Assembly: GCF_039555335.1 (NCBI RefSeq)
Contig: NC_092642.1
Span: forward strand, 35,128,181 to 35,192,180
Direction: 5' to 3'
Source: Amphiura filiformis
Lineage: Eukaryota; Echinodermata; Ophiuroidea; Amphilepidida; Amphiuridae
DNA length: 64,000 nt
Positions within the stretch are counted from its first letter, which is position 1; the number at the start of each line of letters is the position of its first letter. Both the position numbers and the translations under genes were made by a program. This document shows positions 7,287 to 63,560 of this stretch, piece after piece. Under the pieces are notes generated by a model that was not told the origin of the DNA, made no database searches, and saw nothing but the letters and a program-made list of their open reading frames with translations.

Positions 7287-7289
7287 TTT

Positions 7290-9000
7290 TGTTGTCCTTG
7301 AAGGTATTGCAAAAACAATATAAACTGTCGCTCAAACCGCCTCAAAGCGCTGTACAATGTAAGCATAAGAATAATGCATTAACATGCATTACATCATAAA
7401 CTACTGGTACTAACTAAAATTTATATAACACTAGTAAATACAACATACAGAAGACATCATAAAATCAAATCAAACTTATTAAAATAATGCCTAAGGCACA
7501 AAAGAGTGTTAGTAGATGTAATATAGGGGTGGCGTTAAGAAGATAATCAGTCAGTGGTAGTACTGCTTGGAAATGTTAGTTTGCAGTGCTCGTTTGAACT
7601 GCTCAACAGATTCTTTTCTCTTCAGCGTAATCGTATAATAAAGGTGCTATCCGTTAGTTATTCGTAAAATATTGTTAATTCAGATGTTGCGCCATGTTCG
7701 CAGTTACATTGATTTTCCATGGATTCAATACAAAACAGTTTGTTAAGATTTACCTCAAAAAGCTTGTCATCACGGTATGATCACAGAAGGCAACCACCAT
7801 ATGTCTACGAGTCTTCGTCGTGAAAATCCTACTATCGCGCAAAGAACGTCTTGTTATTCAATTGAAGTGAATTATATTTCCATCTAGTTACAAGTTCCGT
7901 TTCTTAACAATTGTTTAACAGCAGTAGTAGATTGAGCTGGATATCAAAGATTTCAACAATTATTTCTCGATGTTGTTCATCAATTCAACAATTGTTTCTC
8001 AAAGCTGTCTTTTACAATCTACTGAAGTATCAGTCAAAATCAATGAATATTGTAATCTGTTATTGTTAAATTGTCATGCCATACAACATTACAAGACCTG
8101 AAACATTTCCATCCGCTCACAAATTGCTATTCTTAAAACTGCGTTTATCAACATCAGAAGATGGATATGAAAGATTTCAACTTCTCTCTATAAAGGTCTG
8201 ATGTTGATGTCCGAGATAAAGCTGTTGAAATACTTTGTTGAAAACAATCACTTTAATATCGTTTATGGTTAAAATATCACGTCGTACAACATCACAGTTG
8301 GAAAAAAATGAAACATTTCCATCTGATTACAAATTGCGTTTCTAAATAACTGATTGACAACTGCAACTCTCCAGCTTTTAATGATCCAATGTTGACTGAA
8401 GAAAATTAAAATAAATCTAAAATACTAAGCGTATTGCAATATAAGAAACGCTACCAGAATCAAGAAATACATTTTGCCACACTAAATCATGGTTATTGTA
8501 GTAACCAGCTAGCTGAGGGGGCGATGAGACCTCGGTGTGACAATCATGACAAGTGATTCACAATCATGTAAGCAATGATGAAATTTCCTGAGTAAAACTA
8601 ATAACAATTTGATTGTAGTATACAAACAAGACTGGGCATATTAAAATTATTGTACACAATGCACAATTGTTAACGTCCTGAAGAGTTTTCTTTATGTTGA
8701 ATAATGTTGTATAACTTGAATGTCATAATTCCTTTCCTGTTTAAAAACTGCTTCTTGAGAGCTGTCATACAAAAAGATTGTGTATTTGTTAATTAAAAAT
8801 GTAGATGTTTTTTAATTTTTTTTCCTTCAAATATTCAACAATAGATTGGCGGCATTGAAAAGTTGAAATTATAAGAATATTATTATCTCATCACCTTGTC
8901 CTTGATTAAAACTTTAATAAAATAATTTTGAGAAAATCAATAAAGTGAAAACTTCACGGTGTTGGGGTCAATACTACTAAAGCGGAATAGATGTTCACAC
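7290..9000. other. 5' flank of the receptor; degenerate ~220-bp repeat
   Basis: No gene recognised. The block ACATTTCCATCTGNTTACAA and following sequence recurs at about 7874, 8103 and 8313, suggesting a degenerate tandem repeat of roughly 210-230 bp. The receptor promoter should lie just upstream of 7286 on the minus strand, but no convincing TATA box is seen. Confidence 0.45.
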
Positions 9001-11085
9001 GTGGACGCTGTACGCGAGTGCGTGATATCAGTTTGATGTTGTTTTTTGCTTAGTTTTTGTTTTTCTGTTTACTGACGCTATTTGCGCCATTATCTACAGC
9101 GGTATGTTGTACCTTCATTAACCATTATTCAATATGGAAATTAGTTTTGAAACTTTATAATCATGGAAGTCCAGTTTTAGAAGAAGGAGGAAACCTGAGA
9201 ACTAATACACATAAAGTCGGCGGAAACGGGTTGACATACCAATCTACTATAGGTTATTCTGTATTGCTAACTATTTTAGGATTTTTTGTTAATTTGGATG
9301 AAGAGCATTTTGACTCATCCTGTACAAAATACAATGACTTTCACAACGTACATCTTTGCATACACCTTTGCGAGACTAACAGTCTGTTTAAAAAACACTG
9401 TTTTTGACAAAATTTGTACACTTTGTGCATTGTAGATTTTAAATTTTTGACAAAATTTGAAATTTGTCGTTTAGCATGTTTAGTGTACACGTGAGATTTG
9501 CAACTATTGCTTTGTGAAGAGCACTTTTAATTCCGAGCTAAACCTGACATTATGTCTGTTATTAATTTTTATACATGTATCAGAGCGACTCGGTATATTA
9601 CATGTTTCACACATTATTAATATTTCAAAACAAAATTAAAAGAAAAGGTGACCATGAAACTCCATGAATCCATGAAACGAGTAAAGACATGTCTTTACAA
9701 AGAGAAAATTAAAGGCCCTTTCAGTGATTTCACAGGAACATTAAAAAAAATGGAAATTTGTCAGAGTTGCTTAGAAATAAAGAATAAGTCTACATAATTT
9801 CATTAAACCACTTTTCCCCTGAATACATCGACAAATTAGTAAAAAACAGAAGTTTTAGAAAGGTTTTCTACTTCAACTCAGATCGACTCGAGAAAATCGA
9901 GATTTTCGTACAGTGCGCCACCAATCGACTGGAAAACTTCCTAGTCCAGTGTTTCTAACACGGGGAAGTAGAGTCTAAATTGATTTAAAACAGACGCTTA
10001 ATTTTTGTAGTAGAAAACAAAATAAGCAATTAAAGGTCACCGAAGCAAACTAACGGTCAATTCAAATATGAAAAAACAGTTAAAATTGTGTATTTTGTTT
10101 AAAATAGTAGCTACTGATGTAATAAGTAGTAGAAACAATACGCAACGCGTGTTGGTACGTGGAGAGTGAGCTTCTTTCGATCTTGAGTCGGACTTTTGTA
10201 CTGTCAGTATCAAAAGTCCAGAATCATCAAATGCTTTATTTTGTCTAAAATACACGGCTTTCGACCGATCCACTAGCAGGCTATGTTAGCACATCTATGC
10301 CAATTACAAAGGTACCAAAATCTGAATTTTGATGATTTTTACGATCGTCCGGATGAGCAAATCACTGAATGAAACTCCTTCAGAAATATTGCTTTTTATT
10401 CGAATGGAACATGAGTCCTTGGACAAGAAAGTAATGAATTCTAACAAAATAGCTTGACCTTGTGAAAATCCCCAATGTTGTCATGCTTAATATATAACTT
10501 GAATGCAATATAATGATTGTAATGCTATAATGTGATGCAGCACGGCAAAGGGGGTGGGGGGGGGGGGTGGGGGACATTGCGGCAAAGTGCTTTTCAAGAT
10601 AAAAATAGACAGATAAAAATAAGGGAAATAAAATAATTTGTGATGCTTTTTAAAATATGAATGCCTTGATCAATTATAGCAAATGAGGTGTAATTTTAAA
10701 GCTTGCAAAATGCTTTCAAAGCAGAAATACTGAACTTAAAATTCAAACGTCTGTCTTGTATGATAATAAATATCAGCTACATCACAGTAGCGTAACAGCA
10801 TGGAGTTGGAGTTATAAAAAAAATGTTTTTTGCTTTGTGTTTCATTCTGTTATTACATGGTTTCAAGGATAAGAAGAGTTACATCAGAGATTAAACAACA
10901 AACAAAAATCCAATCAAAAAAAAAAGAAAAAAAAAAAGAAACAAGAGAAAAACAACCCACATCACACATTTCAAAAACTCATACAAGCCAAGAAAACAAA
11001 AACAAATCAAAAACAACAAACACACATTAAAACAACAAAGGGAAACTTAGCCCGAAATATCACAGCCCTTTCTCCCCTATTATAG
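9000..11085. other. non-coding stretch with homopolymer tracts
   Basis: The longest open frame (9057-9407, 116 codons, hydrophobic start) shows no family motif and I do not call it. There is a G-tract at about 10550-10572 and an A-rich tract at about 10915-10960. One segment (10262-10376) is a dispersed repeat listed separately. Confidence 0.45.
10262..10376. repeat. dispersed repeat, partner at 46337-46446
   Basis: The segment beginning CACTAGCAGGCTATGTTA and ending GGATGAGCAAATCACTGAAT is nearly repeated at 46337-46446, inside the transposon nested in the LTR retrotransposon. Both include GATTTT and ACGATCGTCC. Function unknown; a shared mobile-element fragment is likely. Confidence 0.7.
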
Positions 11086-18165: not shown

Positions 18166-19245
18166 ACAGTGTCGACACCCTGTATTATAAATATTTTTCC
18201 CCTGCAACTTAATACTCCGCTGGTGAGCGACGGGCGATTGGTATTTCACCGAACGTAAGAAAAGGAGTCCTATCTGATTGGCTAGAAATCGATCGCTAGA
18301 TCGCTCAGTGGTGAAGTATAAACTCAAAATATAGATATGTATTCAATTCTATTTAAATCAATATTCTATTATTGACGCAGATAAAGAAAGTTGCATAGTG
18401 TCTCGATATGTGCATTGTATTCTTGTATTATAGACTTATTATAGACAAAATCGCCATGCGTAGCTTTTGAAAAACGAGAGGATTCCCCGGAGGATTCGCC
18501 GTACTATCACGGCAATTTTTGACACGAAGATATAGGGATGATGATCATCCCTATATCTTCGTGTCAAAAATTGCCGTGATAGTACGGCGAATTTTCAAAA
18601 GCTACGCATGGCGATTTTGTTCGAGATAGGTCGAGCGACTCAGGCAAAGCATACCATTTACACGATATGAGATACCATAGAGCCTGCCGCAGAGTTTCTA
18701 TTCTACGATTTGCGCATGATCAGTACCACATATGGTGTTGCCATTATAAGAAAATTCGATTTGTTGTCAGGTAAAACCCAGGTTTTGTTTCCAATACACT
18801 AACTCGAAATGCAATACACTAATTTAGTAATTAGCGGAGATTGGTGTTTGCTGTGGATACATTTTACTGCATTTTATAAGTAACGATTTTGAAATCAAAA
18901 TTAAAAATGGTGATATATTCAACTGTTTGAGAAATGAATTATATAAAGGAACCCGTGTAAGATACAGGTGCTGTATCTATAATACAATGTACATTATCGA
19001 CACACTTTACCACTTTCTTTATATGCGTCAATAATAGAATATTGATTTCAATCGAATTGAATACATCTCTCCATTTTGAGTTTGTATTCCACCACTGAGC
19101 GATCTAGCGATCGATTTCTAGCCAATCAGATAGGACTCCTTTTCTTGCGTTTGGTGAAATACCAATCGCCCGTCGCTCACCAACGGAGTATTAAGTTTAT
19201 ATTTATAATACTGGGTGTCGACACTGTGCGCCGTGTACCATGTGT
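18153..19245. mobile_element. large nested inverted-repeat element
   Basis: Outer arms at about 18153-18440 and 18975-19245 are inverted copies (shared: CAGTGTCGACACC, TGGTGAGCGACGGGCGATTG, AGGAGTCCTATCTGATTGGC and TCAATATTCTATTATTGACG). Inside sits a separate hairpin at 18447-18618. A related internal segment (GGTCGAGCGACTCAGGC..., ATATCTTCGTGTCA) recurs at 29215-29375. Short ORFs here are reflections of the two arms. No transposase. Confidence 0.75.
18447..18618. repeat. 172-bp near-perfect palindrome
   Basis: 18494-18542 and 18544-18592 are perfectly complementary over 49 bp around a single centre base (18543). After a 20-nt bulge present only on the left (18474-18493), a further ~26 bp pair (AAAATCGCCATGCGTAGCTT with its complement ending at 18618). 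Confidence 0.9.
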
Positions 19246-40299: not shown

Positions 40300-40930
40300 A
40301 ACGAGCGTTTTGAGCGTTTCGACAGTATTTTTGTGGGACATGAGCACATTAGACATATCGAATTGCATTCTGAATACGAAGAATGTCTTTCTGATATCAA
40401 ATAATTTTCATTTTTGAAATTCACGATATAATACAAATTTTATGACAAATTATTAAAATTTGATATTTTTCAAACAGTCCTTGAAGTAAATTTTATAAAT
40501 CTAATGATATATTCTTAAAGTGTATGTAGCTGGGAGGAAAAGCCGACGATCAATTGAAAATTTTAACCTTTCATATTGAAGATATGGGTTTTTCCCCAAA
40601 AAGACCTATTTTTTGGGTGTTTTGGGGAAAAATCCATATCTTCAATACGAAAGGTCAAAATTTTCAATTGATCGTCGGCTTTTTCATCCCACCTACATAC
40701 ACTTTAAGTGAAAATCATCAGATTTATAAAGTTTACTTCGAGTACTGTTAAATATTTAAAATATCAATTTTTAATCATTTGCCATAAAAATGTATTACAT
40801 TGCGAATTTCAAAAAATCTAAATTATTTGATATCAGAAGAACATTCTTCGTATTCATAATGCAATTCGATATGTCTGATGTGCTCTAATGTCCCGCAATA
40901 AATACTGTCCAAACGTTCATACCCCATCCC
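40300..40930. mobile_element. 630-bp foldback element (full copy)
   Basis: Left arm ~40308-40600 and right arm ~40615-40930 are inverted copies. Shared words are GACAGTATTT, CATATCGAATTGCATT, GTGTATGTAGSTGGGA and the central GCCGACGATCAATTGAAAAT. It is downstream of lipase 1; a half copy is in intron 1. Confidence 0.85.
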
Positions 40931-41439: not shown

Positions 41440-41700
41440 TTGATGACATATTTAGTATGCTATCTGCTGCTGCTGATGGTATGGATGACATACTTGGTAT
41501 GCTATCTACTGGTGATGAGTGTGTGGATGACATACCTGGTCTGCTATCTACTGGTGATGAGGGTGTAGATGACATACCTGGTCTGCTATCTACTGCTGAT
41601 GAGGGTGTGGATGACATACCTGGTATGCAATCTACTGCTGATGAGAGTGTGGATGACATACCTGGTATGCTATTTATTGCTGATGAGGGTGTAAAGTAAG
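41440..41700. repeat. 42-bp minisatellite, left part
   Basis: About six copies of GATGAGGGTGTGGATGACAT-ACCTGGTATG-CTATCTACTGCT. The same repeat resumes at 50745-51850 on the far side of the LTR retrotransposon. Because 42 is a multiple of three, both strands stay open as 14-residue repeats; not a gene. Confidence 0.9.
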
Positions 41701-41718: not shown

Positions 41719-41860
41719 CGCCAGTTGATTCATAGTTGTGTGCCCTTAAGGTGCACTGAGCCTGGATGGGCTCTCCTCTCTCTGTCTCTGCACTCGTGGA
41801 AGCTACATGTGCCTGGTTGTGATTATCACATTAGATTAATCCCTAATCCTTTTATTGGCG
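41719..41860 (+). repeat. 5' LTR (142 bp)
   Basis: Differs from the 3' LTR only by one base missing there in the CTCTC tract. Ends are CGCCAG and TTGGCG, a short inverted repeat but not the usual TG...CA. Confidence 0.85.
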
Positions 41861-41886
41861 TGGTGGCAGCGGTGGGATTCGAAACC
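41861..41886 (+). other. primer binding site, tRNA-Leu type
   Basis: TGGTGGCAGCGGTGGGATTC begins directly after the LTR. It is complementary to a tRNA 3' end including CCA; from memory the sequence CCCACCGCTGCCA-CCA is a tRNA-Leu (UAG/AAG) end. The position directly after the LTR fixes the LTR boundary. Confidence 0.75.
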
Positions 41887-42069
41887 AGTCATCTCTGAAG
41901 TCTCTCAGCTGACCTTCCTGACGAAATTGGTGGTCATCTTGAACCCTAATTGTGTGATCTTTCACAAGACTGTGAGCGACCAGTAAGCTTAAAACAGTAA
42001 GCTTAAGCCTGCAAGGCTGCATATTAGCTTTTATTCTGGTTCACATACACGAGTGTAAAACAATCAGCA

Positions 42070-43248
42070 ATGGCCACAACACATCGTGCGCCGAAGCAAT
42101 GGCCTCTAACAAAGAACGAAACAATAAACTCATTTGAAAGCTGGAAACATAACCTCCAGTATACACTGTCATTAGACCCAAGCTTTTCTCCCTACTTGGT
42201 TGAAGGAGCGGTATGGGGCAAAAAGTCAAAAACTTCCCCTCTTCGAGGTCTCACTAACGACGGTGAGGACATACAGGAAGCCCAAAGGAAAACGGCAGTC
42301 CAGAAAAATGCTGCATTGGAGCTTATGCTTGGACAAATAGCCAACTATTGTCCAATTATCTCACGAAATACAATACTCAAAAACTGCACCAGCCTGAAAC
42401 AGATATGGCAAGCCATCCGTCTCCATTTTGGCTTCCAAACAACAGGTGGCCACTTCCTAGAGTTCAACAATATTACCCTTGGCCCTGATGAACGGCCAGA
42501 GGACTTGTACCAGCGTCTAGTAGCATTCACCGAAGACAACCTCATGCGTGAAGGAGGCGGCATCAGTCACCATGACCAAGTCATCGATGAAGATGAGGAG
42601 ATTACGCCTACACTCGAAAACTTTGTAGTGTTAACGTGGTTGCGTCTTATAAACCCTGATCTGCCCCGATTAGTAAAGCAGCGGTACGGTACAGAGCTAA
42701 GATCCCGCACCTTGGCTTCTATCAAAGCCGAAATTTCTCAAGCTCTGGATTCGCTCCTGGATGAGCTGAGCTCAAACGATGCTGCTCGCAGCATGCGCAC
42801 TAGTAGTCAGCGTAGACCGATGCCTAAATTGAAAGCTAAGAAATCATTTGGTAAATCCTGCCCTCTGTGTGAGCAAGCTGGTCGGCATGACCATGCGCAT
42901 TTCTTAAGCGAGTGCTCGTACCTCCCTGAAAAGGACAGAAAATACCTGGCCCGCGCTCGTCAGCTTAACATCCTTGATGATTGTGACAGCGACTCAGATT
43001 TAGCATGCGCCTTTGTTGACCAATCTGACCTTAGTGCGCAGCCCAATGTTCAGACAGCGCTGCGAATTCATGTTGATCAGTCTCCTTATGTAGATGCATT
43101 CCACAAGCACCATGCGGTCCGCATCACCATTGACAGTGGATCCACTGGTAATCTCATTCGCGAAAACACTGTCCAACGATTAGGATGCCCCATTCATCAG
43201 AGTTCGCAGTCTGCCCGTCAAGCTGATGGGTCATCCCTCTTAAGGTAG
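42070..43248 (+). CDS. gag: retrotransposon Gag with zinc knuckle and start of protease
   Basis: 392 residues. The N-terminal half is a capsid-like helical region (motifs such as [10 protein letters not shown] and [13 protein letters not shown]). A zinc knuckle-like CPLC...H.H...C lies at 264-282. The retropepsin motif [10 protein letters not shown] (Asp355) is near the C-terminus. Reading stops at 43246, where another frame carries on with the rest of the protease, so this is a frameshift (programmed or mutational). Start is the first ATG about 180 bp after the primer site. Confidence 0.85.
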
Positions 43249-44271
43249 TTGGGGAAACAACCCTCACCTTTACTCGTGACAGACACTCCTTTGTCTTTAA
43301 AGGTCTAGTTGTTAGAGACCTTGACGAAGAAATCCTTGCAGGTATTCCCTTCATGAAATGCAATGATGTCGCAATTCGCCCTGCTAAGAACCAAATCATC
43401 TTGACAGATGGTACAATTATCAGTTATGGCGCCAACAAGAGCCCCAAATCCCAGCACACTGTTCGTCGTGCCCATATACTTCGTGGACCTTCTCAAAACA
43501 CTACCATATGGCCAGGCTCATACGTTGAGGTAAATCTCCCTGCAGACATCGTTGAATCAGATGCTACTTTTGCCATTGAGCCCCGTGTTGATACCCCGCT
43601 CGGTAGGTTCCTACCGCCCAAACAAGCCTGGCCCAAGCCTGATGTAATCACAAGTATTGCAGGCAGGGTTCGCATTCCCAACAATACTGGTGTGCCACTT
43701 GTCATCAGAAAGCATGAACATCTTGGCCAGATACACACTGTTTTTTCACCATCACTAACTTCTAAGCCATCACACACTGCTGCAGCAGCATCAGTCAATG
43801 TCCCAAAGCCCAGTTCACCGGTTAACTACTCAGCTGCTGTTGCCCTTGACCCAGATGGTATACTTGGCACTTGTGAGCAATCCAACTTCCGCAGTCTTCT
43901 CGATGAGTACGATGAGGTTTTTGACCCTAGTTTCCCAGGTTACAATGGTGCTGTCGGCCCTTTCAAATCTGTGGTTAATATGGGACCGGTCCAACCCCCC
44001 CAACGCAAAGGTCGTCTCCCATTGTATGCACAGGATAAACTCCAAGAGTTGCAATCAAAGTTTGATCAGCTTGAAAAAGCAGGCGTCTTTGCTAGACCTG
44101 AAGATGTCGGTGTGTGTGTCGAATACCTTAACCCGTCCTTTCTTGTCAAGAAGCCTAATGGAGGCTTTCGTCTGGTTACTGCATTTGCTGATGTCGGTAG
44201 ATATAGCAAGCCACAACCCTCTCTAATGCCCAATGTGGACTCAACATTGCGTTCAATTGCCAAATGGAAGT
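43240..44271 (+). pseudogene. pol: retrotransposon Pol, 5' part (protease end, RT N-terminus)
   Basis: After the frameshift the frame carries ILAGIPFMKC (protease C-terminal part) and a linker. The start of the RT follows, with SFLVKKPNGGFRLVTAFADV, and stops being RT-like exactly where the nested transposon begins. The last ~60 residues of the open frame to 44459 are encoded by that transposon, not by pol. Confidence 0.85.
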
Positions 44272-44445
44272 ACCGTAAAACCCCGTCTACAAGGATATAC
44301 CTAAGAAACGCCCTCAATAAAATTGGTTGCTTGTTGTATTTGGAGTTTGAGCAAATATATACTGGCACTGGGTGGCTATGCATTCCATCTAAGTATGTTG
44401 TAACACCAATCAATTGTATTGACATAATAACGACTGTTTCGTATA

Positions 44446-44531
44446 TCAGGATCGTATAGCTCAATTGATAGAGCGTCAGACTTTGGAACTGAAGACATGC
44501 TGAAGAGAGCATGGTCCGGGCACCGGTTCCG
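44446..44531 (+). repeat. tRNA-like sequence in left arm
   Basis: CGTATAGCTCAATTGATAGA resembles a tRNA D-arm with A box. CAGACTTTGGAACTG follows as an anticodon-arm-like hairpin whose loop would present TTG. The T-arm/B box region is degraded. It aligns with the inverted copy at 46680-46765, so it is part of the transposon end, not a functional tRNA gene. Confidence 0.6.
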
Positions 44532-45170
44532 TTTTTTCATTCTCGTTTAATTTTAACTCTTTGACATGTTCTTTTTATCTTTCTTCAAATCTACCTTTCT
44601 ACTTTTAATTTTAGGTGTGTTTTTTTTATATTTTTTTTTTTTTTTTTTTTAGTAATTTTGTGGTTTTATAGAAACTAGTAAAAGCATTTATTCTAAATAA
44701 TAGCGAAACCCACGGTTAGACAGATGTGTTGTAACTACTTGTCTGTCCTCGTCTTTGCAATAAAAACCTATGTTGCACCTTTGTGCCATCCCAATTCTTG
44801 AGGAATGGTAGGTAGGGTGCGTTTTTGGCTTAAGCACGATTTTGTTTCTACTTGAAATGAAATCAAAATAAATATTGTTCTGTTGCCACAATTGCAGTTT
44901 TTTCAATAAAAAAAAAATAGATGAGGAATAATAATTATTCCATATTTGAATCTATTGTCCCATCAAGAATAGAGTGTCTTCAAAAACTTCAATCAATTCA
45001 TCTGACAAAGGAAACTATTCTGGTCATTCAATTTTGTTTCGCTTGCACCTGTTATATCACAGGCGTTGGTAGAGAAGGCACGCTTCTCTTGTCTTCACCG
45101 AAGTAGTGATGTAAACACTAACATGATTAATTACCATAGCTAGCAATGGACATACACTATTTTTGTTCCA

Positions 45171-45475
45171 CTTGAACCCATACTATAGGCTATTCGCTGT
45201 CGATGTGACGTAATTAATCGGATTAACTACCATAGCAATTGATGAATACAATTTCGAATATATAGCCCTGCACTTCATCGTTCACGTGGCACCTATGCAT
45301 TAAACCATAGTTGTCAAAGAAATGCTAATCACTCGCCATGTAAGATTAGTATTTATGAAAAGAGTGGTATTCAATCTATGTTTGGTGACATACGCGGGTG
45401 ATTAGTGCAATCTGCTTGATGGTAGTTATTGCGATTATTACGTCACTTCGACAGCGAATTGTAGTATAGACGAAT
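45171..45475. mobile_element. palindromic MITE, family member 1
   Basis: Left ACTATAGGCTATTCGCTGTC and right GACAGCGAATTGTAGTATAG are inverted. Both continue into GACGTAATTAATCG / CGATTATTACGTC and a TAACTACCAT block. Confidence 0.7.
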
Positions 45476-45512
45476 CCAACAAGCCAAGTGATGGTCAGAA
45501 TTTATTCGGTTT

Positions 45513-45812
45513 ATACGCTGGTGAAGTTGCGTAATTAATCGGATTAATTACCATAGCAATAGGTGAAAACAATTTTGAACATATCGCGCTGCGCTACAAG
45601 CAGGTTACACTCATCACCTGTACTGTGTATGTCTGCAATCATAGATTGAATACAATACTGGTCTTTTCAAAGATCTTACAGGTGCAGCATGATATGGTTC
45701 AATGAAGAGGTACCGCCTGAACGTATCAGTGTATAACGCGGTATATTCAAAATTGTTTTCACCTATTGCTATGGTAGTTAATCCGATTATTACGTAACTT
45801 CGCCAGCGTATT
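45513..45812. mobile_element. palindromic MITE, family member 2
   Basis: Arms TACGCTGGTGAAGTTGCGTA and (inverted) TACGCTGGCGAAGTTACGTA extend ~75 bp through GGATTAATTACCATAGCAAT and AGGTGAAAACAATTTTGAA. The AATTAATCGGATTAACTACCAT core is shared with member 1. Confidence 0.75.
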
Positions 45813-45900
45813 GAATAAAACAGGAGGATGTGAGTTCATAAGGGCAATGTCGGGGATTATAGGTCACAATCGATGTGGAGAGATGAGAGGTCCGACCAAC

Positions 45901-46106
45901 AGCCATTCGCTACTTGCACGGTTCCGCCATTATGCACTATGTGCGGGAGAGCCTCGAACTGGCAGCATACATGAAAGGAAGAATTATGTAACCTTACACA
46001 GAACGTTATGACTAGGTCAATTCCCATTCATGTATGCTGCCAGTTCGAGGCTCTCCCCGCACATAGTGCATAATGGCGGAACCGTGCAAGTAGCGAATAG
46101 CGAATG
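45901..46106. repeat. 75-bp-arm hairpin
   Basis: CCATTCGCTACTTGCACGGT...CAGCATACATGAA at 45903-45974 is matched in reverse complement at 46028-46106, separated by about 50 bp. Nearly perfect arms. Confidence 0.85.
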
Positions 46107-46679
46107 GTTCATGTTCAACTAATTCCAGCGGACGGTCTGTGGCTAGTAAGGAATCGTCTTTGACCACATGCGCAGATCTGTCTCGTCAGGAAGATATTTA
46201 ATATCCCGAATTTATAATAGGCCTATGCCTACCAGTTCCATCGTATAACCGATCTGCTAGAGAATATTTGTTACCATGTTTAATAAATTCGTATTTATCG
46301 TATAATAAAATGTAGCCAAATGTATATTATGTGTCACACGGTTTTCTGCTGAACCACTAGCAGGCTATGTTACCACATCTATGACAATGACAAAGGTGAA
46401 TTTTGATGATTTTACGATCGTCCGGATGAGCAAATCACTGAATGGGTCTTTAGTTCCTCCTCTCCTTATCCTGCCAATATTATATGAATCAAAGAAAAAT
46501 AAAGAAAAAATAAAATTAAACAAGAAAAAAAGACAAAGAAAAGAAACAATAAAAGAAAAACAATAGAATAAATTAAACTAAATATGAAAAAAAAATGATC
46601 ACGAAAGGAGTCTTTAGAAAATGCAAGAAAATATAAATGAAAAGTTTGAACAATATTTTGTTTATAAAAGTTTGTGTGA

Positions 46680-46765
46680 CCGTGATGAGGCTCGAACTCA
46701 CCATCTTCCGATCTAAAGAACCAAAGTCTTATGCCTTGCCAAGTGAGCTATGCTCGTGCGATGCG
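46680..46765 (-). repeat. tRNA-like sequence in right arm (better preserved)
   Basis: On the minus strand: CATAGCTCACTTGGCAAGGC (A box/D arm), AAGACTTTGGTTCTT (anticodon-like arm, loop reading TTG) and GGTGAGTTCGAGCCTCAT (T arm, B box GAGTTCGAGCC). The arms are tRNA-like but lack a clean acceptor stem. An inverted partner is at 44446-44531. Confidence 0.65.
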
Positions 46766-46914
46766 AAACAAAGATAAAATAATACATTGTATACCTGCTT
46801 GTGTCGGTAAATGATTTGCTCAAATTCCATAATGATATAATATTGTGGAGGGCGCTAGCGTGAAATATGCTATCATCACAGTCGCTTCTATTCCTTATAG
46901 ACGGGTTTCTACGG

Positions 46915-47268
46915 TATTTGATTGCCACTGACTTGACTAGTGCTTTCTACCAAATCCCTTTATCCCATGAGTCCATGAAATACTGTGGTGTTGCAACTCC
47001 CTTTCGTGGGGTGCGTGTGTATACACGGTGTGCCATGGGTATGCCAGGTTCTGAAACAGCCCTTGAGGAACTGATGTGTCGTGTCCTTGGTGACCTCTTA
47101 GAGAAAGGTGTCGTCGCAAAACTCGCTGATGACTTGTACTGTGGTGGTAATACTGTGGATGAACTTGTTGAGAATTGGCGTCAAGTTTTGCAAGCTTTGT
47201 CTAAGTCTGGGTTACGTCTTTCTGCTTCCAAAACAGTCATTTGCCCCCAAAAGACAGTAATTCTGGGT
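46915..47268 (+). pseudogene. pol: retrotransposon RT domain, part after the nested transposon
   Basis: RT resumes directly after the TA with [12 protein letters not shown] (motif A, catalytic Asp), then GMPGS (motif B position) and the catalytic box as [10 protein letters not shown] stop at ILG marks a one-base frameshift; the expected downstream part continues in another frame to the start of the RNase H region. Confidence 0.87.
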
Positions 47269-47353
47269 TGATTTGGTCAAATGGAACCCTTTGTGCTAGC
47301 CCCATAGCATCGCCACACTTTCCAGCTGCTCGCCTCCAAGCAAAGTTGGTGGC

Positions 47354-48997
47354 ATGCGGTCCTTCATCGGTGCATACAAGGTTCTGGCCCGTGTCATTCA
47401 GAATTGTGCCAGTCTGGTAGCCCCATTAGATGATGCTATTGCAGGGCACCAATCAACTGAAGAGCTTACATGGTCTGATAGTCAGCATACTGCTTTTCAC
47501 AAGGCTCAAGCAGCACTGTCTTCCGCTAGGGCAGTCACACTTCCCCATCCCAATGATCAGCTTTGGATCATTACTGATGGATCCGTGAAGAAACATAGCA
47601 TTGGGTCGACATTGTATATTTCCCGCAATGACAAACTCTTCCTCGCCGGGTTCTTCAGTGCTAAATTGCGTGATCGACAGCCAACATGGTTACCCTGCGA
47701 AATTGAGGCGCTGTCTATTTCTGCCTCCACCAAGCACTTCAGTCCCTATGTTATTCAGTCCAAACACAAGACATGTATCCTCACTGACAGCAAACCTTGT
47801 GTTCAGGCATATGAAAAGCTCTGCCGGGGTGAGTTTTCAGCCAGTCCTCGCGTGTCCACATTCCTCTCCACTGTCAGTCGTTTCCAAGCATCTGTTCGTC
47901 ATCTTGCAGGATCAGCTAACACCCCTCAGACTTTGCTAGTCGTAATGCCCCTGACTGACTGCACTGAGCCCACTTGTCAAATATGCTCCTTTATCAAACG
48001 TGAAGAGGAAGCAACTGTCCTTCGTGTTTCCGCACATGACATTCTGTCCGGGAAAGCTAAGCTCCCCTTTGCCAGCAAAGCAGCCTGGCATGCTATTCAG
48101 CAGGAATGCCCGGATCTGCGACGAACACATGCTCATCTTGTTCAGGGCACTCGCCCTTCAAAGAAAGCTACTTCTGTCAAAGATGTGAAGCGCTATTTGC
48201 AGGTTGCATCTATCGCTAGAGATGGCCTACTTGTTGTTCGTCGTGATCAACCATTGTCCCCAACTCGCGATTGTATTATTGTTCCCAGACAGGTCTTAAA
48301 TGGTCTTCTCACTGCCCTGCACATCCAACTTGACCATCCCTCCAAACATCAGCTCAGTTTGGTGACCCAGCGTTACTTTTATGCTCTTGATATGGACAAG
48401 GCTATTGATCAAGTGACATCAACTTGTCACCAGTGTGCTTCTCTGTCCAATGCCCCTAAGACAGTGATCGAGCAGTCCTCAAGTGACCCTCCCGATGCAG
48501 TTGGCATTTCTTTTGCAGCTGATATCCTGAAGCGTAGCCGCCAGCTAGTCCTTGTGCTGCGCGAAACCTCAACGTCCTACACAGCTTCTTGCATTGTCGA
48601 GAATGAACAACATGGCACGTTGCGTGATGCCCTGATTCAATTGTGCATTGAACTTCGTCCACTTGATGGCCCCCTGCAGTCATTCGTACTGACCCAGCAC
48701 CAGGGTTTGTTCGACTCGCCAATGACAAACTTCTCATACGTTACCATCTATCGGTTGAGATCGGTCGTATTAAATATAATAACAAGAATCCTGTTGCTGA
48801 GAAAGCCATTCGTGAGCTTGAAGATGAGTTGCTCAGACAAGATTCTACAGGTGGTCCGGCTACAGCATTATCACTTGCCATTGCTACTGCAGCCCTTAAT
48901 ACTCGCATCAGATCCCGAGGTCTTTCAGCCCGTGAGATGTGGTTTCAGCGAGACCAGTTTACCAATGAGCAGGTTCCTTTCACTGATTGTCAAATGA
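47354..48997 (+). pseudogene. pol: retrotransposon RNase H and integrase region
   Basis: RT connection ([15 protein letters not shown]) is followed by RNase H with TDGS, EIEALS and LTDSKP acidic residues. Next come an integrase HHCC zinc-binding segment ([10 protein letters not shown]...CHQC) and the start of the integrase core (first Asp in AADILKRS). Between about 47928 and 47955 two compensating shifts garble the RNase H end. Near 48690 the core shifts frame: the second Asp (RTDPAPGF) and the Glu segment are in another frame that joins the next entry. The open frame after ~48690 is out of frame. Confidence 0.83.
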
Positions 48998-49671
48998 TTC
49001 AGGCCCAGCATGCCTTGCGAAAAGCCAACCACCCACACAGTGCTCATTCAAAGGCCCCATTAGCCTCTGCCTCCCCAGCAGCAGAGTTGGAGGTTGGTGA
49101 TCTTGTCCACCTCTACTCAGATCGCAAGAAATCTCATGCTAGAGATCGCTACTTAGTCACTACTATCGAAGGCCCATGGTGCAACATCCGCAAATTTGTG
49201 GGTTCTCAGCTTCGGAATACTTCTTATCGTATCAAGAAATCTGAGTGCTTTAAGGTCCAGTATTATCCTGACCTGGATTCTCGTCCCTTTCCCAAGTCGT
49301 CTCCACCCACCGAGGATTCCGAGTTTGTTGAAGTGGTCCCTGTATGTACTCCTCCAGAGCCTCCTTTCATACCTGGCGAGTTGTCCACACCTGCTACTTG
49401 TGACCCCCTGCCCAGGAATGCTAATCACTCGCACCCCAGTTCTGAGTCAGATCCTCGCGATCCCTTGCGCGATAGCGGTCATAGCTCCAGCAATACCTCC
49501 GGTTTGGTTGCACAGTCTAATCCATGTACCGGTAACAGCAGTGAGGTTAGTGAAAGTATCCCCCAAGCTAGTATGGTTGGCCCTGAGATCATGCCACCAT
49601 TGCTCACACAAAGGCGTTCCACGCGCCCTCACAAACTTCCTGAGCACCTGAAAGACTATGTGTTAAACTAA
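48829..49671 (+). CDS. pol: retrotransposon integrase C-terminal part
   Basis: 280 residues in the frame that completes the integrase: [33 protein letters not shown] and a C-terminal SH3-like segment ([29 protein letters not shown]). A Ser/Pro-rich tail ends [19 protein letters not shown]. The first Met is internal to the domain, not a true start. Confidence 0.8.
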
Positions 49672-50078
49672 ATGGACAGGTCACTGTGTACTATGGCAAT
49701 AATCCATCATCGGTGTCCTCCTATATGGTCACTTCATTGAACTTTGAACTGATTTACGTATGTCATTTGGAATTCTAAAAGAAAACTCTGGAACTGACGT
49801 TTACTTCTTTGAACTTTGAACCATTTTACATTCATGTTGAATGTCAGTTTGTCATTGCAGACAAAAAGACTCTTGAACTGTTGATGTTATTGACTGTTGG
49901 CACATTGCCTATTTTGAGTGTTCTAAACCAACAGTGTCTTCATTCACATAAGCTGTTAGATTGGTTTCTGCAAGTCAGTTGTTAGTAGTAATTGTTTAGT
50001 AGTGTTATCCTCACTTCCTTGTGAGGAAAGTGATCTTTTTTTTTCTTTAAAAGACAAAAAGAGAGAAAGAGGTAGTTA
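49672..50078 (+). other. retrotransposon 3' untranslated region with polypurine tract
   Basis: Non-coding stretch ending in AAAAGACAAAAAGAGAGAAA-GAGG at about 50050-50072, a purine run just before the 3' LTR, where plus-strand priming is expected. Confidence 0.7.
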
Positions 50079-50219
50079 CGCCAGTTGATTCATAGTTGTG
50101 TGCCCTTAAGGTGCACTGAGCCTGGATGGGCTCTCCCTCTCTGTCTCTGCACTCGTGGAAGCTACATGTGCCTGGTTGTGATTATCACATTAGATTAATC
50201 CCTAATCCTTTTATTGGCG
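50079..50219 (+). repeat. 3' LTR (141 bp)
   Basis: Same as the 5' LTR except one missing base. Begins CGCCAG six bases after the purine run and ends TTGGCG. Confidence 0.85.
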
Positions 50220-50559: not shown

Positions 50560-50742
50560 GCGAGTCTGTTACCTTCCCAGCATTTAAGAATGCTGGTACC
50601 CATTTAAACACCTGGGTGGAGAGGAGTAATCGAGATAAAGTGTCTTACTCAAGGGCACAACACGATGGCGTCGCCGGGGCTCGAACCCGCAACCTTCCGA
50701 TTATGAGTCAGTGCCTGTTCCGCTAGGCCACCGCGCTCCCGA
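50560..50742 (-). mobile_element. tRNA-derived SINE
   Basis: On the minus strand: GGGAGCGCGGTGGCCTAGCG, an anticodon arm with loop CTCATAA (CAT, Met-like) and GGTTGCGGGTTCGAGCCCCG (textbook B box). The body GTGTTGTGCCCTTGAGTAAG follows, then CACCCAGGTGTTTAAATGGG. A tRNA head plus unrelated body defines a SINE. From memory this body type is widespread in marine invertebrates. Confidence 0.85.
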
Positions 50743-50744
50743 TG

Positions 50745-51850
50745 AGGGTGTGGATGACGTATTTGGTATGCTATCTACTGCTGATGAGGGTGTGGATGGA
50801 ATACCTGGTATGCTATCTACTGCTGATGAGGGTGTGGATGACATACCTGGTATGTTATCTACTGCTGCTGAGGGTATGGATGACATGCATACCTGGTATG
50901 TTATATCTACTGTTAATAAGGGTGTGGATGACATATTTGGTATGCTATCTACTGCTGATGAGGGTATGGATGACATATCTGGTATGCTATCTACTGCTGA
51001 TGAGGGTTGTGGATGACATACTTCGTATGCTATTTATTGCTGATGAGGGTGTTGATGACATTTGGTATGATATCTAACTGCTGATGAGGGTATGGATGAC
51101 ATACCTGGTATGTTATATCTACTGCATGCTGATAAGGGTGTGGATGACATAATTGGTATAATATGTACTGCTGATGAGGGTATGGATGACATATCTGGTA
51201 TGCTATCTACTGATGATGAGGGTGTGGATGACATACCTGGTATGCTATCTACTGCTGATGAGGGTGTGGATGACATACTTGGTATGCTATTTATTTCTGA
51301 TGAGGGTGTGGATGACATTTGGTATGATATCTAACTGCTGATGAGGGTATGGATGACATTCCTGGTATGTTATATCTACTGCTGATAAGGGCGTGGATGA
51401 CATATTTGGTATGATATGTACTGCTGATGAGGGTATGGATGACATATTTGGTATGCTATCTACTGATGATGAGGGTGTGGATGACATACCTGGTACCGGT
51501 ATGCTATCTACTGCTGATGAGGGTGTGGATGACATTTGGTATGATATCTAACTGCTGATGAGGGTATGGATGACATACCTGGTATGTACTACTGCTGATA
51601 AGGGCGTGGATGACATATTTGGTATGATATGTACTGCTGATGAGGGTATGGATGACATATTTGGTATGCTATCTACTGATGATGAGGGTGTGGATGACAT
51701 ACATGGTATGCTATCTACTGCTGATGAGGGTGTGGATGACATACCTGGTATGCTATCTACTGCTGATGATGAGGGTGTAGATGACATACCTTGTCTGCCA
51801 GCTACTGCTGAGTGAGTGTGTGGATGACATACTTGGTATGCTATCATCTA
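50745..51850. repeat. 42-bp minisatellite, right part, with higher-order structure
   Basis: About 26 copies of the same 42-bp unit as 41440-41700. The variant GACATTTGGTATGATATCTA recurs at 51057, 51314 and 51531, so units are also organised in groups of six and five. Open frames on both strands are 14-residue repeat translations. Confidence 0.92.
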
Positions 51851-52226
51851 CTGCTGAGGACATGGATGACACACATGATACTGCACACATGATCTCAGAC
51901 CCGATTATAATTACTTTCAACACCGTTTACGGCTGAATATTTTATTTTATTATTTTATTTGTTGCTTTTTATTTCAAAAATATACCAATGGTGAACTCAA
52001 TATTTGTACAGATCGTGTCATGTACTGCTTGTGCTCGTCCAAATATTAGCCTTGAGCCTATCATTAACAATATGTGTGACTGTGACACATAAGTTTATTG
52101 TGCATACTCCCGATCCCGGCCCCTGGGTGCATTGAAGTGCTGGTGTATGCATGGTCGATTTTGTGCAAAAGGAATTATACACCCAAGGACTTTTCGCCAT
52201 GACGAGTGTATATTAAGCTTGATGTG
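51850..52226. other. 5' flank of lipase gene 2
   Basis: Non-coding; no repeat recognised beyond the end of the minisatellite. Confidence 0.4.
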
Positions 52227-52516: not shown

Positions 52517-55500
52517 GTAAGTACTCTTTTTGCGACTTGATAAGACACCCCGGGGACAAACTTAAAAGGCGCGCCTACATGTTATTGTAGACACATGTCC
52601 CCCTTCTCTCTGTCTCTCCGAGTCCCTCTGCCAGTCTCTCTCTTCCTCTCCTCCTCCTCTAGCTTCCTCTCTCTTCCTACCCTATCTAGATATGTCTCAC
52701 ACATGCATCCTCATACACGTATATTCCTCATGCAGACCAGGATTTTTGTAGATCACGCAAGTTGCAAGTAAAGATGTCCGCCTGATACAATTAAATTATT
52801 TAAATAATTTTAAGAAATATATAACGTCACATAGGGATGAAAATTACATAGTTCTCTGGGTTGATAGGATGAACAAATTTTAATCTTTACCAGAACAGCC
52901 AGCGCACATAAACGGTTTTTTTTACAACGTTTATGTGCGCTGGCTGCTCTGGATAAAGATTAAAATTTGTTCACCAGAAATTGACAAATACAGCAGTTTT
53001 CACGTATAATTTACATTGCCAGCAGTTTTCAGCATCTGCCTAGACTACCCCGTAGTCCACTTGCCCATTGTGCATATCTGGATATTGTATTTTTAAATAC
53101 AATATCCAGAGTAAGCTTAAAAGCTTAAAACTCTGATTTAATTAATGTGTGCACAAGTGATAGATTTTCACATCTGATCATTTCAGTCACCCTACTCCCT
53201 CTGTTTGTTAGCTTCCATTTTTAACCTGGAATTTCGCGATTAATAAACTGGCAGATTCTAAAATCAGAATTGTTCAGTATTGCCAATACAATTATGACAT
53301 TATGATATGTTGCATTCAATAATATAAGCCTACGTACACTTTACTTTAACCGTCACTAATATAATTATACAAACTTTTTCATAACAATTTTATACTAGTA
53401 ATAGTATTTTGATGTAATAAATATCAGTATAATTTCGAGTTCAACTGAATGCTTTCATCATGATTAACATTAATAACATGCTTTTATTTATCAAAAATCG
53501 AATATGGCATAGTCTAGCATCTGCCAGGAAAACGATGAGGCCCATTTATTTAAAAATAAAAGATTATGAGGGATTAGATCCATTAAGATTTCCACAAAGC
53601 ACTACTTGGAAACTTGTACGTGATTCATGTTGACTAAACTTGTTTATTAACATTTTACTTGAATATTAAAAATCTTAAGATTTAATATGAAAATTAGTAT
53701 ATATAATATCCCAAAAAGTGAGGAGGGAGGTGGGCGCGAAACGATTTAATTTTTTATTTGGCCTAAATATCAAAAAGAATGAAAAAAAGAAAAAGAAAGA
53801 AAAAAAAAAACAAGCAAAAAAAAAAAAAAAAGTAAAGAGACATAAATGAAGGAAAGGCAGAAACTTTAAGACAAAAACTAACAAAATGAAACAGAGGTGA
53901 AATCGCAGATGGATAAATCAGGATTAAGGACAGGAAAGAAAGGAAGGGATTACAAAAACATGAAAGCATAAACACATTGCAAAAATGAAAAGAAAGGAAA
54001 ATAAAGTTCAGTAAAAATTGTAAAAAAAGGAGAATGATTATATTAATCCTTCATAACATTTAGGCTAATTGTTATGATTTCAGAGTGGTTTGATCAGCAG
54101 TAAAGGCTATCCAGTGCAAGATTTTGAAGTCCCGACTAAAGATGGCTTTCTTCTTGGTATGCAGAGAATACCACATGGTAAACATGACGGGGATCTCACG
54201 GGTAAGCTTATACTTTGATCAGCTCGTAATCGCGGCGGGAATTGTTAGGCTTTTATCACTACGCCGAAAAGTAGATCCACTTTAAGAGTGATATAGTTAT
54301 AGTTGTCCTGTCTGGTCTAGTCTATAATGTGCTTGTTTAACATGAAGACTAAGTATGGGACTTCAATTAATAATTTGTGATGCTTCCGACGTGTTGCCAC
54401 AGGGCAATTCTCAAAATAGAACATATTGATATTAATCCGCGATGTTAATTCTATATTATTGCGATTGGTTATCATTACAAGTTTTATCTGTTAAAACAGA
54501 GTATGTGAGCAAGGGTGCTGTATATTTATTTTCATCAATTGGTTCCGATGGTGTGTTTATTTTATTAAAAAAGACTGATTTCAATACAATTTTAGCCTGT
54601 TTAGGGGTAAGGTGGATCGGTGGTGGGGGCATACAATTTTTGTTGCCGAAATGGGGGGGGCACAATTTTATTGACGCCGACTATTGGAAAATTTGGGACC
54701 CCCCTTTCGAAGAAAATGATAGCCCCCTGCCCTAAGTTACCCGGCCATACACTGCCAAAACGTGGGTTAAAATTTTTAACCAACAGGATTACCAGGTGAA
54801 ACACACAAATATTGGTTAAAATTTTAACCAACAAGTTTAAACTTTTTAACCCATGTCATCAGAAGTTTAAACTTGTTGGTTAAAAATTTTAACCAACAAT
54901 TATGTGGTTCACCTGGTAATCCTGTTGGTTAAAAAATTTAACCCACGTTTTGGCAGTGTATATACACAGGTGAGGAGGCAGTGGCGTAACTAGGGTTGGT
55001 AACGCCCGGGGCAAGAAACGAAATTGGCGCCTACGCGCCACCCCCCACCCCCACCGAGAATATCTTAGACGCGGGTGTGGGGGAATGGCATCGGCATTAT
55101 GATTTGGCGATTTGGCGCCCCCCTAGTGGTAGCCCCGGGGCACGTTGCCACCCCTTGCGCCCAGTTACGTCACTGAGTAGAGAACAGTGCTTAAGCTACA
55201 GTTGCAGCCTGGTTGCAAGGGGTTTGATGAAATTTCATATTATTCTTAAACATGTCCTCTTATTATCATGATAATGCATAGTGGCATTTAGTTTAGAGAG
55301 GAAGGGAATAATACAAAATCCTGACTATCTGAAATTGTTTTAAGCCATTTGTTTCATTATCAGAACCAAGACCAGCAGTTCTCTTACAACATGGTTTATT
55401 GGGTACTTCAACCAACTGGCTTGTCAATCTGGCCAATGAGAGCCTGGCTTTTATCCTCGCTGATGCCGGTTATGATGTGTGGCTTGGTAACGTACGAGGC

Positions 55501-58123: not shown

Positions 58124-59113
58124 TACACAGCCGTGACGCTAGTCACGGCTGTGTCTTTTTCCTTATTACACAGCCGTGACGCTAGTCACGGCTGTGTCTT
58201 TTTTCTTACAGGTTCTTTCTGCCGACCACTACATTTGCTCTAGCACTCACATGCTTACACCGATTTGGACCTAACTTGGTCACAACCATCATTGACCATG
58301 CCCCTACATGTCACATGAAACTCGTGGGGTCAAAGGTCACGCTGGGGTCATAGGGGTCAAAAACGTGATTTCAACTCAAAATGCTTCTTCTCCTACAGAT
58401 TACGTATGACGGTGACCCCACTTGCACACATGCATTGCTATTACCCAGTGTCTATGGGGTCCTCACAGATTTGGGGTCAAAGGTCATTAAGGGGTCACTT
58501 CCGGTATAAAACGAAAAACCTTCAAAAATTTTTATTTGCTAAGAAAAACATAGGACAGTAACGGAATTTTCACACATAAATTGTAGTTACCCTGTGTATA
58601 TGTGGTATTTTTTTATTTAGGGTCGAAGGTCATTAAGGGCTACTTCCGGTATAAAACGAAATACCTTTAAAATGCTTCTTCTCCCACAAATTACGTAGGA
58701 CAGTGACAACACTTGCACACATGCATTGCTATTACCCAGTGTCTATGTGGTCCTCACAGATTTGGGGTCAAAGGTTATTAAGGGGTCACTTCCGGTATAA
58801 AACGAAAAACCTTCAAAAATTTTTATTTGCTAAGAAAAACATAGGAGAGTAACGGTATGTTCACACATGAATTGTGGTTACCCAATTCATATGTGGTATT
58901 TTTATTTGGGGTCAAAGGTCATTAAGGGGTCACTTCCGGTCTGAGACGAAAAATGCCCTTCTGTCACAAATAACATAGCAAAGTGGTGCCACGTGCACCC
59001 ATATATTGACATTAGCAAATGTCTATGGGCGTTTTCATATATTTTGGGGTCAAAGGTCATTAAGGGGTTACAACACGGCTGTGTTCGTGGTCTTAGACCA
59101 CAGCTAAGTCTAG
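58124..59113 (+). mobile_element. Helitron-like element, second family, copy A
   Basis: Starts with the palindrome ACACAGCCGTGACGCTAGTC-ACGGCTGTGT (present twice). It ends ACACGGCTGTGTTCG, then the hairpin GTGGTCTTAGACCAC, 8 nt, CTAG and host T. A hairpin shortly before CTAG|T is the classical Helitron 3' end, and the start and end share inverted ACACAGCCGT. The interior has ~290-bp tandem sub-repeats with GGGGTCAAAGGTCA and CACTTCCGGTATAAAACGAA. Confidence 0.55.
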
Positions 59114-59114
59114 T

Positions 59115-60391
59115 TACACAGCCGTGACGTTAGTCACGGCTGTGTCTTTTTTTCTTACAGGTTCTTTCTTCTTTCTTTCTTCTTTCTTCTTCTTTCTGCC
59201 GACCACTTCATTTGCTCTAGCACTTACATGCTTACACCGATTTTGACCTAACTTGGTCATAACCATCATTGACCATGCCCCTACATGTCATATGAAACTC
59301 GTGGGGTCAAAGGTCACGCAGGGGTCATAGGGGTCAAAAACGTGATTTCAACTCAAAATGCTTCTTCTCTCACAGATTACATAGGACGGTGACACCACTT
59401 GCACACATGAATTGTTATTATCCCGTGTCTATGGGGTCCTCACAGATTTGGGGTCAAAGGTCATTAAAGGGTCACTTCCGGTATAAAACGAAAAATCTTC
59501 AAAAATTTTTATTTGCTAAGAAAAACATAGGACAGTAACGGTATGTTCACACATAAATTGTAGTTACCCTGTGTATATGTGGTATTTTTTTATTTAGGGT
59601 CAAAGGTCATTAAGGGCCACTTCCGGTATAAAACGAAATACCTTTAAAATGCTTCTTCTCCGACAAATTACGTAGGACAGTGACAGCACTTGCACACATG
59701 CATTGTTATTACCCAGTGTCTATGGGGTCCTCACAGATTTGGGGTCAAAGGTCATTAAGGGGTCACTTCCGGTATAAAACGAAAAACCTTCAAAATTTTT
59801 TATTTGCTAAGAAAAACATAGGACAGTAACGGTATGTTCACACATACATTGTAGTTACCCTGTGTATATGTGGTATTTTTTATTAAGTGTCAAAGGTCAT
59901 TAAGGGGCCACTTCCGGTACAAAACGAAATACCTTTTAAATGCTTCTTCTCCCACAAATTACGTAGGACAGTAACACCACTTGCATACATGCATTGTTAT
60001 TACCCAGTGTCTATGGGGTCCTCACAGATTTGGGGTCAAAGGTCATTAAGGGGTCACTTCCGGTATAAAACGAAAAACCTTCAATTTTTTTTTATTTGCT
60101 AAGAAAAACATAGGACAGTAACGGTATGTTCACACATGAATTATGGGTACCCAATTCATATGTGGTATTTTTTATTTGGGGTCAAATGTCATTAAGGGGT
60201 CACTTCCGGTCTGAGACGAAAAACCTTCAAAATGCCCCTTCTGCCACAAGTAACATAGCAAAGTGGTGCCACATGCACCCATGCATTGACATTAGCCAAT
60301 GTCTTTGGCCGTTTTCATATATTTTGTGGTCAAAGGTCATTAGGGGTAACAACACGGCTGTGTTCGTGGGTTAGACCACAGCTTAGTCTAG
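59115..60391 (+). mobile_element. Helitron-like element, second family, copy B
   Basis: Directly follows copy A after a single T. Same head palindrome (with one base changed) and same tail (GTGGGTTAGACCACAGCTTAG-TCTAG, hairpin mutated). It has one more internal ~290-bp sub-repeat than copy A. Confidence 0.55.
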
Positions 60392-62489: not shown

Positions 62490-63560
62490 GCGCTATAACT
62501 GATAATAGCGATATTAGCGCTCTTTTTTTATACTAGACGCAATTGCGCTATTTTGTCATTCGTTTCTACACATAATTGCGATAATAGCACTGCTATTATC
62601 AAAAAGTGCTAATTTCGCTATTATCAGTGTATTTTTTAGACTTAGAAGAAAATCAGTTTGGTGAAAATGGCTCTTAGACAAAATTGCGCAATTATGCAAT
62701 TTTCACTTTACCCCACCACTCAAGTGATAATAGCGCTATTTCGCTATTTTCAAAATGGCCTTTAGACAAAATTGCGCAATTTTGCAATTTTCACTTTACC
62801 CCACCACTCAAGTGATAATAGCGCTATTTCGCTATTTTCAAAAATGGCCTTTAGACAAAATTGCGCAATTTTGCAATTTTCACTTTACCCCAGCACTCAA
62901 GTGATAATAGCGCTATTTCGCTATTTTCAAAATGGCCTTTAGACAAAATTGCGCAATTATGCAATTTTCACTTTACCCCACCACTCAAGTGATAATAGCG
63001 CTATTTCGCTATTTTCAAAATGGCCTTTAGACAAAATTGCGCAATTATGCAATTTTCACTTTACCCCACCACTCGAGTGATAATGGCGCTATGTCGCTGT
63101 TGTCAAGAATGGCCTTTAAACAAAATTGCGCAATTATGCAATTTTCACTTTACCCCACCACTCAAGTGATAATAGCGCTATTTCGCTATTTTCAAAATGG
63201 CCTTTAGACAAAATTGCGCAATTTTGCAATTTTCACTTTACCCCACCACTCAAGTGATAATAGCGCTATTTCGCTATTTTCAAAAATGGCCTTTAGACAA
63301 AATTGCGCAATTTTGCAATTTTCACTTTACCCCACCACTCAAGTGATAATAGCGCTATTTCGCTATTTTCAAAATGGCCTTTAGACAAAATTGCGCAATT
63401 TTGCAATTTTCACTTTACCCCACCACTCAAGTGATAATAGCGCTATTTCGCTATTTTCAAAATGGCCTTTAGACAAAATTGCGCAATTATGCAATTTTCA
63501 CTTTACCCCACCACGCAAGTGATAATAGCGCTATTTTGCTATTTTCAAAAATGGCCTTCA
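62490..63560. repeat. 88-bp tandem array (ten copies)
   Basis: CCCCACCACTCAAGTGATAA recurs at 62711, 62799, 62888, 62976, 63064, 63153, 63241, 63330, 63418 and 63506. Each unit holds TAGCGCTATTTCGCTATTTTC and AAAATTGCGCAATTTTGCAA, both with dyad symmetry. Sequence at 62490-62640 is a degenerate AGCGCTA/ATTGCG-rich precursor-like stretch. Sub-units differ mainly by ATTATGC versus ATTTTGC. Confidence 0.92.

Follow-up and report, generated by a model that had tools for sequence, protein, structure and literature searches.

The segment 44273–46914 of the 64-kb window (the whole stretch of Amphiura filiformis DNA that was analysed) is a 2,642-bp insertion that interrupts the reverse-transcriptase frame of an LTR retroelement. 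Both ends of the insertion are inverted arms, and each arm carries an inward-pointing tRNA-like module. The reading that we favor, with a probability of roughly 0.58, is that the insertion is a non-autonomous cut-and-paste transposon with a TA target, Tc1/mariner-like solely by its TA and its tips, that captured a single tRNA-derived segment and subsequently underwent inverted duplication of the end that held it. All inferences on the element are drawn from this single copy.

Insertion site and termini

The insertion is bordered by a TA target duplication (44271–44272 and 46915–46916) and is bounded by 23-bp inverted tips, CCGTAAAACCCCGTCTACAAGGA at 44273–44295 (+ strand; pattern match with 0 mismatches) and CCGTAGAAACCCGTCTATAAGGA at 46892–46914 (− strand; pattern match), with 20 of 23 bases identical between the left tip and the inverted right tip. 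The tip pattern CCGTARAANCCCGTCTAYAAGGA, searched with up to three mismatches, has exactly two matches in the 64-kb window compared with 0.00 expected. In an empty site reconstructed from 30 + 42 bases of flanking sequence, a single frame of the three is open and contains a 17-residue peptide, and the flank to the right of the insertion matches Pfam RVT_1. The preliminary description had reported these boundaries, with a TA duplication and inverted termini, and had stated that removal of the insert restores the RT frame; both statements are confirmed. The letters of the tips resemble, as we take it, those of pogo/Tigger tips.

No second copy of the element was found in the 64-kb window by repeat and tip-pattern searches. 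The tip pattern gave 0 stretches in the viral_contigs and genome_contigs collections (viral and prokaryotic DNA), as did a pattern combining the A box with GACTTTGG (0 stretches in each). These collection searches say little about copy number, since a eukaryotic element is not expected in viral and prokaryotic DNA.

Target retroelement and timing of the insertion

The target retroelement lies on the + strand (41719–50219). It has end repeats (41719–41860 and 50079–50219), which are labelled as LTRs by position, and Pfam domains above cut-off (RVT_1, RT_RNaseH_2, RT_RNaseH and zf-H2C2). The end repeats are identical at 141 of 142 columns, the sole difference being a one-base gap, with no substitution in 141 bases. 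The coding part is broken across several frames independently of the transposon insertion; this retroelement copy is therefore probably not intact. A search of viral_contigs with the right-hand RT fragment, the query for which starts with transposon-derived residues, found 10 stretches with the peptide pattern, none of which was confirmed as a relative. A 42-bp minisatellite with the same repeat unit flanks the retroelement on both sides (41442–41692 and 50741–51871), a layout that would result from insertion of the retroelement into a minisatellite array.

The inverted arms of the transposon carry many substitutions and gaps and are far more diverged than the end repeats of the retroelement. 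The near-identity of the end repeats, set against the divergence of the arms, implies that this divergence predates the last jump. The exception would be a retroelement that had acquired the insert first and then spread together with it, which could have happened and would loosen the age argument.

Relationship between the two arms

When the right arm is reverse-complemented and aligned with the left, the local score is 356, compared with 187 ± 18.5 for 500 shuffles, none of which scored as high, and an arm alignment score of 345 was reached by 0 of 2,000 window segments drawn at random from outside the element. The similarity is concentrated in blocks. For the tips and for the tRNA-like modules compared left with right, 0 of 2,000 random window segments align as well, and the stretch from tip to A box is equaled by six of 2,000 random segments and one of 1,000 shuffles. 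Most of the similarity in this last stretch is carried by an inner block, TGGARTTTGAGCAAAT, that is identical at 15 of 16 positions between the arms. The left copy, TGGAGTTTGAGCAAAT (44341–44356, + strand), contains the dyad TTTG-AG-CAAA, and the right copy, TGGAATTTGAGCAAAT, is at 46814–46829 on the − strand; these are the only exact matches to the inner-block pattern in the window, with six looser matches elsewhere. The inner dyad block and the tips are probably transposase sites, and their conservation fits a transposase that would act from elsewhere by binding them. The spacer from the inner block to the A box is not significantly alike in the two arms (330 of 2,000 random segments are as good). 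Thus, the earlier proposal that the arms stay related inward for ∼240 bp stands in outline, with the relationship confined to patches (tip, inner block and module).

Behind each module the arm continues into a tract that is T-rich by sequence composition, at 44530–44668 on the + strand (left, with T runs of 4–20) and at 46495–46669 on the − strand (right; A-rich on the + strand). The T content of the best 130 bases is 0.65 and 0.69, with both tracts on the same strand of their arm. On the + strand outside the element, a T content of 0.55 is attained by no window of 130 bases, and an A content of 0.65 by 0.1% of them. The tracts extend the symmetry of the plan to about 400–420 bp from each tip. 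Their likeness is one of composition, which inflates the raw alignment identity, and this alignment is therefore not counted as support. Homology of the arms inward of the T-rich tracts was also considered and was rejected, as 253 of 500 controls were as good.

The tRNA-like modules

The left module (44450–44517, + strand) matches the Rfam tRNA model RF00005 with 25.0 bits and the right module (46685–46750, − strand), which has an insert in the variable region, matches it locally with 14.4 bits. Both point inward, as had been described. The gathering cut-off of the Rfam model is 29 bits and both modules fall below it; the claim of a tRNA-like module in each arm thus holds in that both match the model, with a subthreshold score on the left and a considerably lower one on the right. 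In the Rfam search of the whole window the left module has an E value of 0.78 over 4,227 families, and the right module is missing among the matches at E up to 10. When 161 bases were searched, the right match had an E value of 1.6 over 4,227 families and covered model positions 8–63 of 71, including the T arm.

The A boxes, TAGCTCAATTGA on the left (44457–44468, + strand) and TAGCTCACTTGG on the right (46739–46750, − strand), each agree with the consensus at eight of nine letters and are located 184 and 164 bases, respectively, from the element ends. A right B box, AGTTCGAGCCT (46688–46698, − strand), agrees at seven of ten letters and is 52 bases from the A box; nothing above six of ten was found in the left arm. 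The GACTTTGG block occurs three times in the window, with one occurrence in each module. The boxes that had been noted are thus present in both arms (A) and in fair form on the right (B), with the qualification that the A-box stretch alone is no rarer than chance (two matches in the window with up to three mismatches, compared with 1.33 expected). The window contains 40 pairs of A and B boxes with at least seven matching letters in each box (20 on each strand, that of the right arm among them), and box matches alone therefore mean little.

Neither module was called by ARAGORN and neither folds better than its shuffles (z scores of −0.86 and +0.67, with +0.49 and +1.09 for two shorter cuts). 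A complete tRNA gene was therefore rejected for both arms, given also the Rfam scores. Of the 171 pairs that 19 human tRNAs form, 45 score at least as high as the two modules do with each other (55.5); against tRNA-Lys-TTT the left module scores 57.5 and the right 54.5. The right module also contains, at 46700–46712 (− strand), AGATCGGAAGA, which is the start of a common sequencing adapter and which we take to be a coincidence.

Features expected of a SINE were sought around both modules. As a tRNA-like head, the arms offer A boxes on both sides and a fair B box on the right only. An A-rich 3′ tail is absent after both modules, and a T-rich tract is found in its place. The flanks of the left module share no 6-mer, and the 7-mers shared by the flanks of the right module fall towards the bottom of the range given by 500 shuffles, such that a separate SINE target duplication around each tRNA-like block, the pattern that two independent SINE insertions had been expected to leave, was found for neither beyond chance. 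The common orientation, the similar A-box distance, the GACTTTGG block, the T-rich tracts and this lack of duplications together make a capture that preceded the formation of the arms the better supported course. The original suggestion that a SINE was captured before the inverted arms formed is thus favored as regards a tRNA-derived capture, and not as regards its identity as a SINE, for which the A-rich tail is lacking.

A SINE-like copy is present elsewhere in the window, between the right end repeat of the retroelement and the 42-bp minisatellite. Its tRNA-Met-like head (50666–50737, − strand; the copy possibly continues to about 50601) was called by ARAGORN and appears among the whole-window Rfam tRNA matches with 23 bits. 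In our reading this copy is a SINE.

Interior and coding capacity

The middle of the element is largely occupied by nested repeats, which contribute part of its length: a foldback at 45191–45461 (inverted repeats I8 and I18), a second foldback related to it at 45511–45813 (repeats I1, I9, D2 and D3), a palindrome at 45895–46108 (I2, 92%; I4, 97%) and a fragment of a second MITE-like repeat at 46317–46452, which matches a relative at 116 of 144 columns. The relatives of this fragment are located at 9710–9730 and 10228–10371 and share a tip, TAAAGGCCCTTTCAGTGATTT, that has two matches compared with 0.01 expected; they are probably both ends of one MITE-like repeat.

The element contains 29 reading frames of at least 40 amino acids. 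The 27 that were scanned against Pfam (the other two are host reverse-transcriptase frames) gave no transposase, with 0 of 27 reaching a curated cut-off; the best subthreshold match was to Med14_C (17.1 bits, cut-off 28). A transposase concealed in the interior was thus rejected for frames of at least 40 amino acids, although shorter broken frames could still hold one. As far as tested, the element is non-autonomous.

Origin of the arms and alternative explanations

In the favored scenario, one end of an ancestral transposon would have held a tRNA-derived segment (a tRNA gene fragment or a SINE head) followed by a T-rich tract. Inverted duplication of that end, as in the formation of foldback elements and MITEs, would have produced the two long arms. 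The arms would then have diverged, with the tip and the inner dyad block kept alike, probably as transposase sites, and the transposase of another element, acting in trans, would have moved the transposon as DNA into the young retroelement. The tRNA-like modules would have been passengers, unnecessary for movement, of which the right may still recruit TFIIIC and pol III and the left probably does not. A single capture is not proved, because the modules resemble each other no more closely than different tRNAs do and the spacer is not demonstrably related.

These same two observations are in line with a rival course, in which independent captures brought a tRNA-derived piece (a SINE head or a tRNA fragment) into each arm and the two came to face inward at similar distances by coincidence. 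Each module is about as close to tRNA-Lys as it is to the other, and a tRNA-headed repeat is present in the window in the form of the SINE-like copy at 50666–50737, whose alignment with the right module outscores the shuffled controls. Two captures would nevertheless leave the shared orientation, distance, GACTTTGG block and T-rich tract of the arms to coincidence, and neither flanking duplications beyond chance nor a SINE tail accompanies either module; we regard this explanation as unlikely. More improbable still is a right arm that resembles a tRNA by chance, with a real module in the left arm only. The low score of the right module (14.4 bits, E value of 1.6) and its absence from the whole-window matches are compatible with such an accident, but its alignment runs across model positions 8–63 with the T arm, and none of the 2,000 random window segments matched the module-to-module score.

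A different possibility is that the modules serve the element, as inward pol III promoters or TFIIIC sites that aid transcription, the opening of chromatin or the pairing of the ends. The A boxes in both arms, the right B box at 52 bases from its A box and the T runs just inside both modules, which could terminate pol III transcripts, are in keeping with such a role. For Helenus, Kojima reads sequence conservation as a sign of a working pol III promoter, without reaching a conclusion in the absence of experiment (PMC10886601). Against this, the left B box is at best six of ten, box pairs are common in the window, neither module folds better than its shuffles and a DNA transposon has no need of an RNA copy. 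Moreover, if the arms diverged before the last jump, the left promoter seems to have been in poor condition when the element moved, and this speaks against any requirement for a working pol III promoter in both arms. The idea in the preliminary description that the element is mobilized with its own pol III promoters is accordingly not borne out, and working modules in general appear to us doubtful.

Comparison with known elements

MITEs are typically under about 800 bp. At 2,642 bp, nested repeats included, the present element exceeds this length, and it resembles MITEs in having no coding capacity among the frames scanned. The closest precedents appear to be MER6 and Helenus. MER6/MER6A is a mammalian Tc1/mariner MITE of 865 bp with a captured V-SINE minus its head (PMC6887750). 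It shares with the present element a TA target, a non-coding nature and retroposon-derived sequence within a mariner-type element, and has 24-bp inverted tips (PMC6887750). Unlike MER6, in which the SINE is headless, it is the tRNA-like part itself that is found here, inward-pointing and in both arms (PMC6887750). Helenus/TRIMp3 has a tRNA-like sequence in its LTRs, which Kojima explains through SINE capture (PMC10886601), and resembles our element in that it is non-autonomous and each of its terminal repeats carries such a sequence (PMC10886601). Helenus has direct LTRs, a PBS, a PPT and 4–5 bp duplications and moves by RNA, whereas here the arms are inverted and the duplication is TA (PMC10886601).

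Tigger/pogo elements likewise have a TA target and tips of ∼20 bp, with a total length of around 2.8 kb (PMC9219625); they differ from the present element in that no transposase was found here among the scanned frames and in that its arms are ∼240 bp or more, although Tigger TIRs of up to 741 bp are listed in sponges (PMC9219625). The coral MITEs termed CMITE are also non-coding and have a conserved internal region of obscure origin, but they have a TTAA target and a length of about 100 bp, and the word tRNA is absent from the main text that describes them (PMC2872659). The element thus appears to combine features of MER6, Helenus and Tigger and, by this comparison, to fit no named family among those compared. 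Among the titles and abstract openings listed, in a search that left most subscription journals outside its scope, no paper described a DNA transposon whose two inverted ends each contain tRNA-like sequence.

Other features of the window

Several features of the window lie apart from the element and its target. A long open frame on the − strand (3960–7331) encodes leucine-rich repeats and a rhodopsin-type 7TM domain, as in an LRR receptor. Three strong hairpins (18496–18590, 40545–40676 and 54778–54930) have subthreshold matches to microRNA families, which for two of them occur on both strands, and are more likely to be palindromic repeats than microRNAs. An 88-bp satellite with 10 copies and 96% matches is found at 62664–63558, and two stretches of a 291-bp tandem array at 58378–60347.

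Implications

tRNA-derived promoters are known from SINEs and some LTR elements. A TIR element carrying such a promoter in both arms would mean that DNA transposons share this device, or at least this accident, with them. In its boldest form, to which we give little credence, the element would represent a class II counterpart of TRIMp3/Helenus: a TA-target family whose inverted ends derive from a tRNA gene or SINE head, whose inward pol III/TFIIIC sites would be helpful (in end pairing, open chromatin or insulation) and which would spread tRNA-like sequence by cut-and-paste. TIR elements with a tRNA-derived promoter in both arms would also add to the erroneous tRNA predictions in annotated genomes, and copies that keep both boxes, if found, would directly test the importance of TFIIIC sites at transposon ends.
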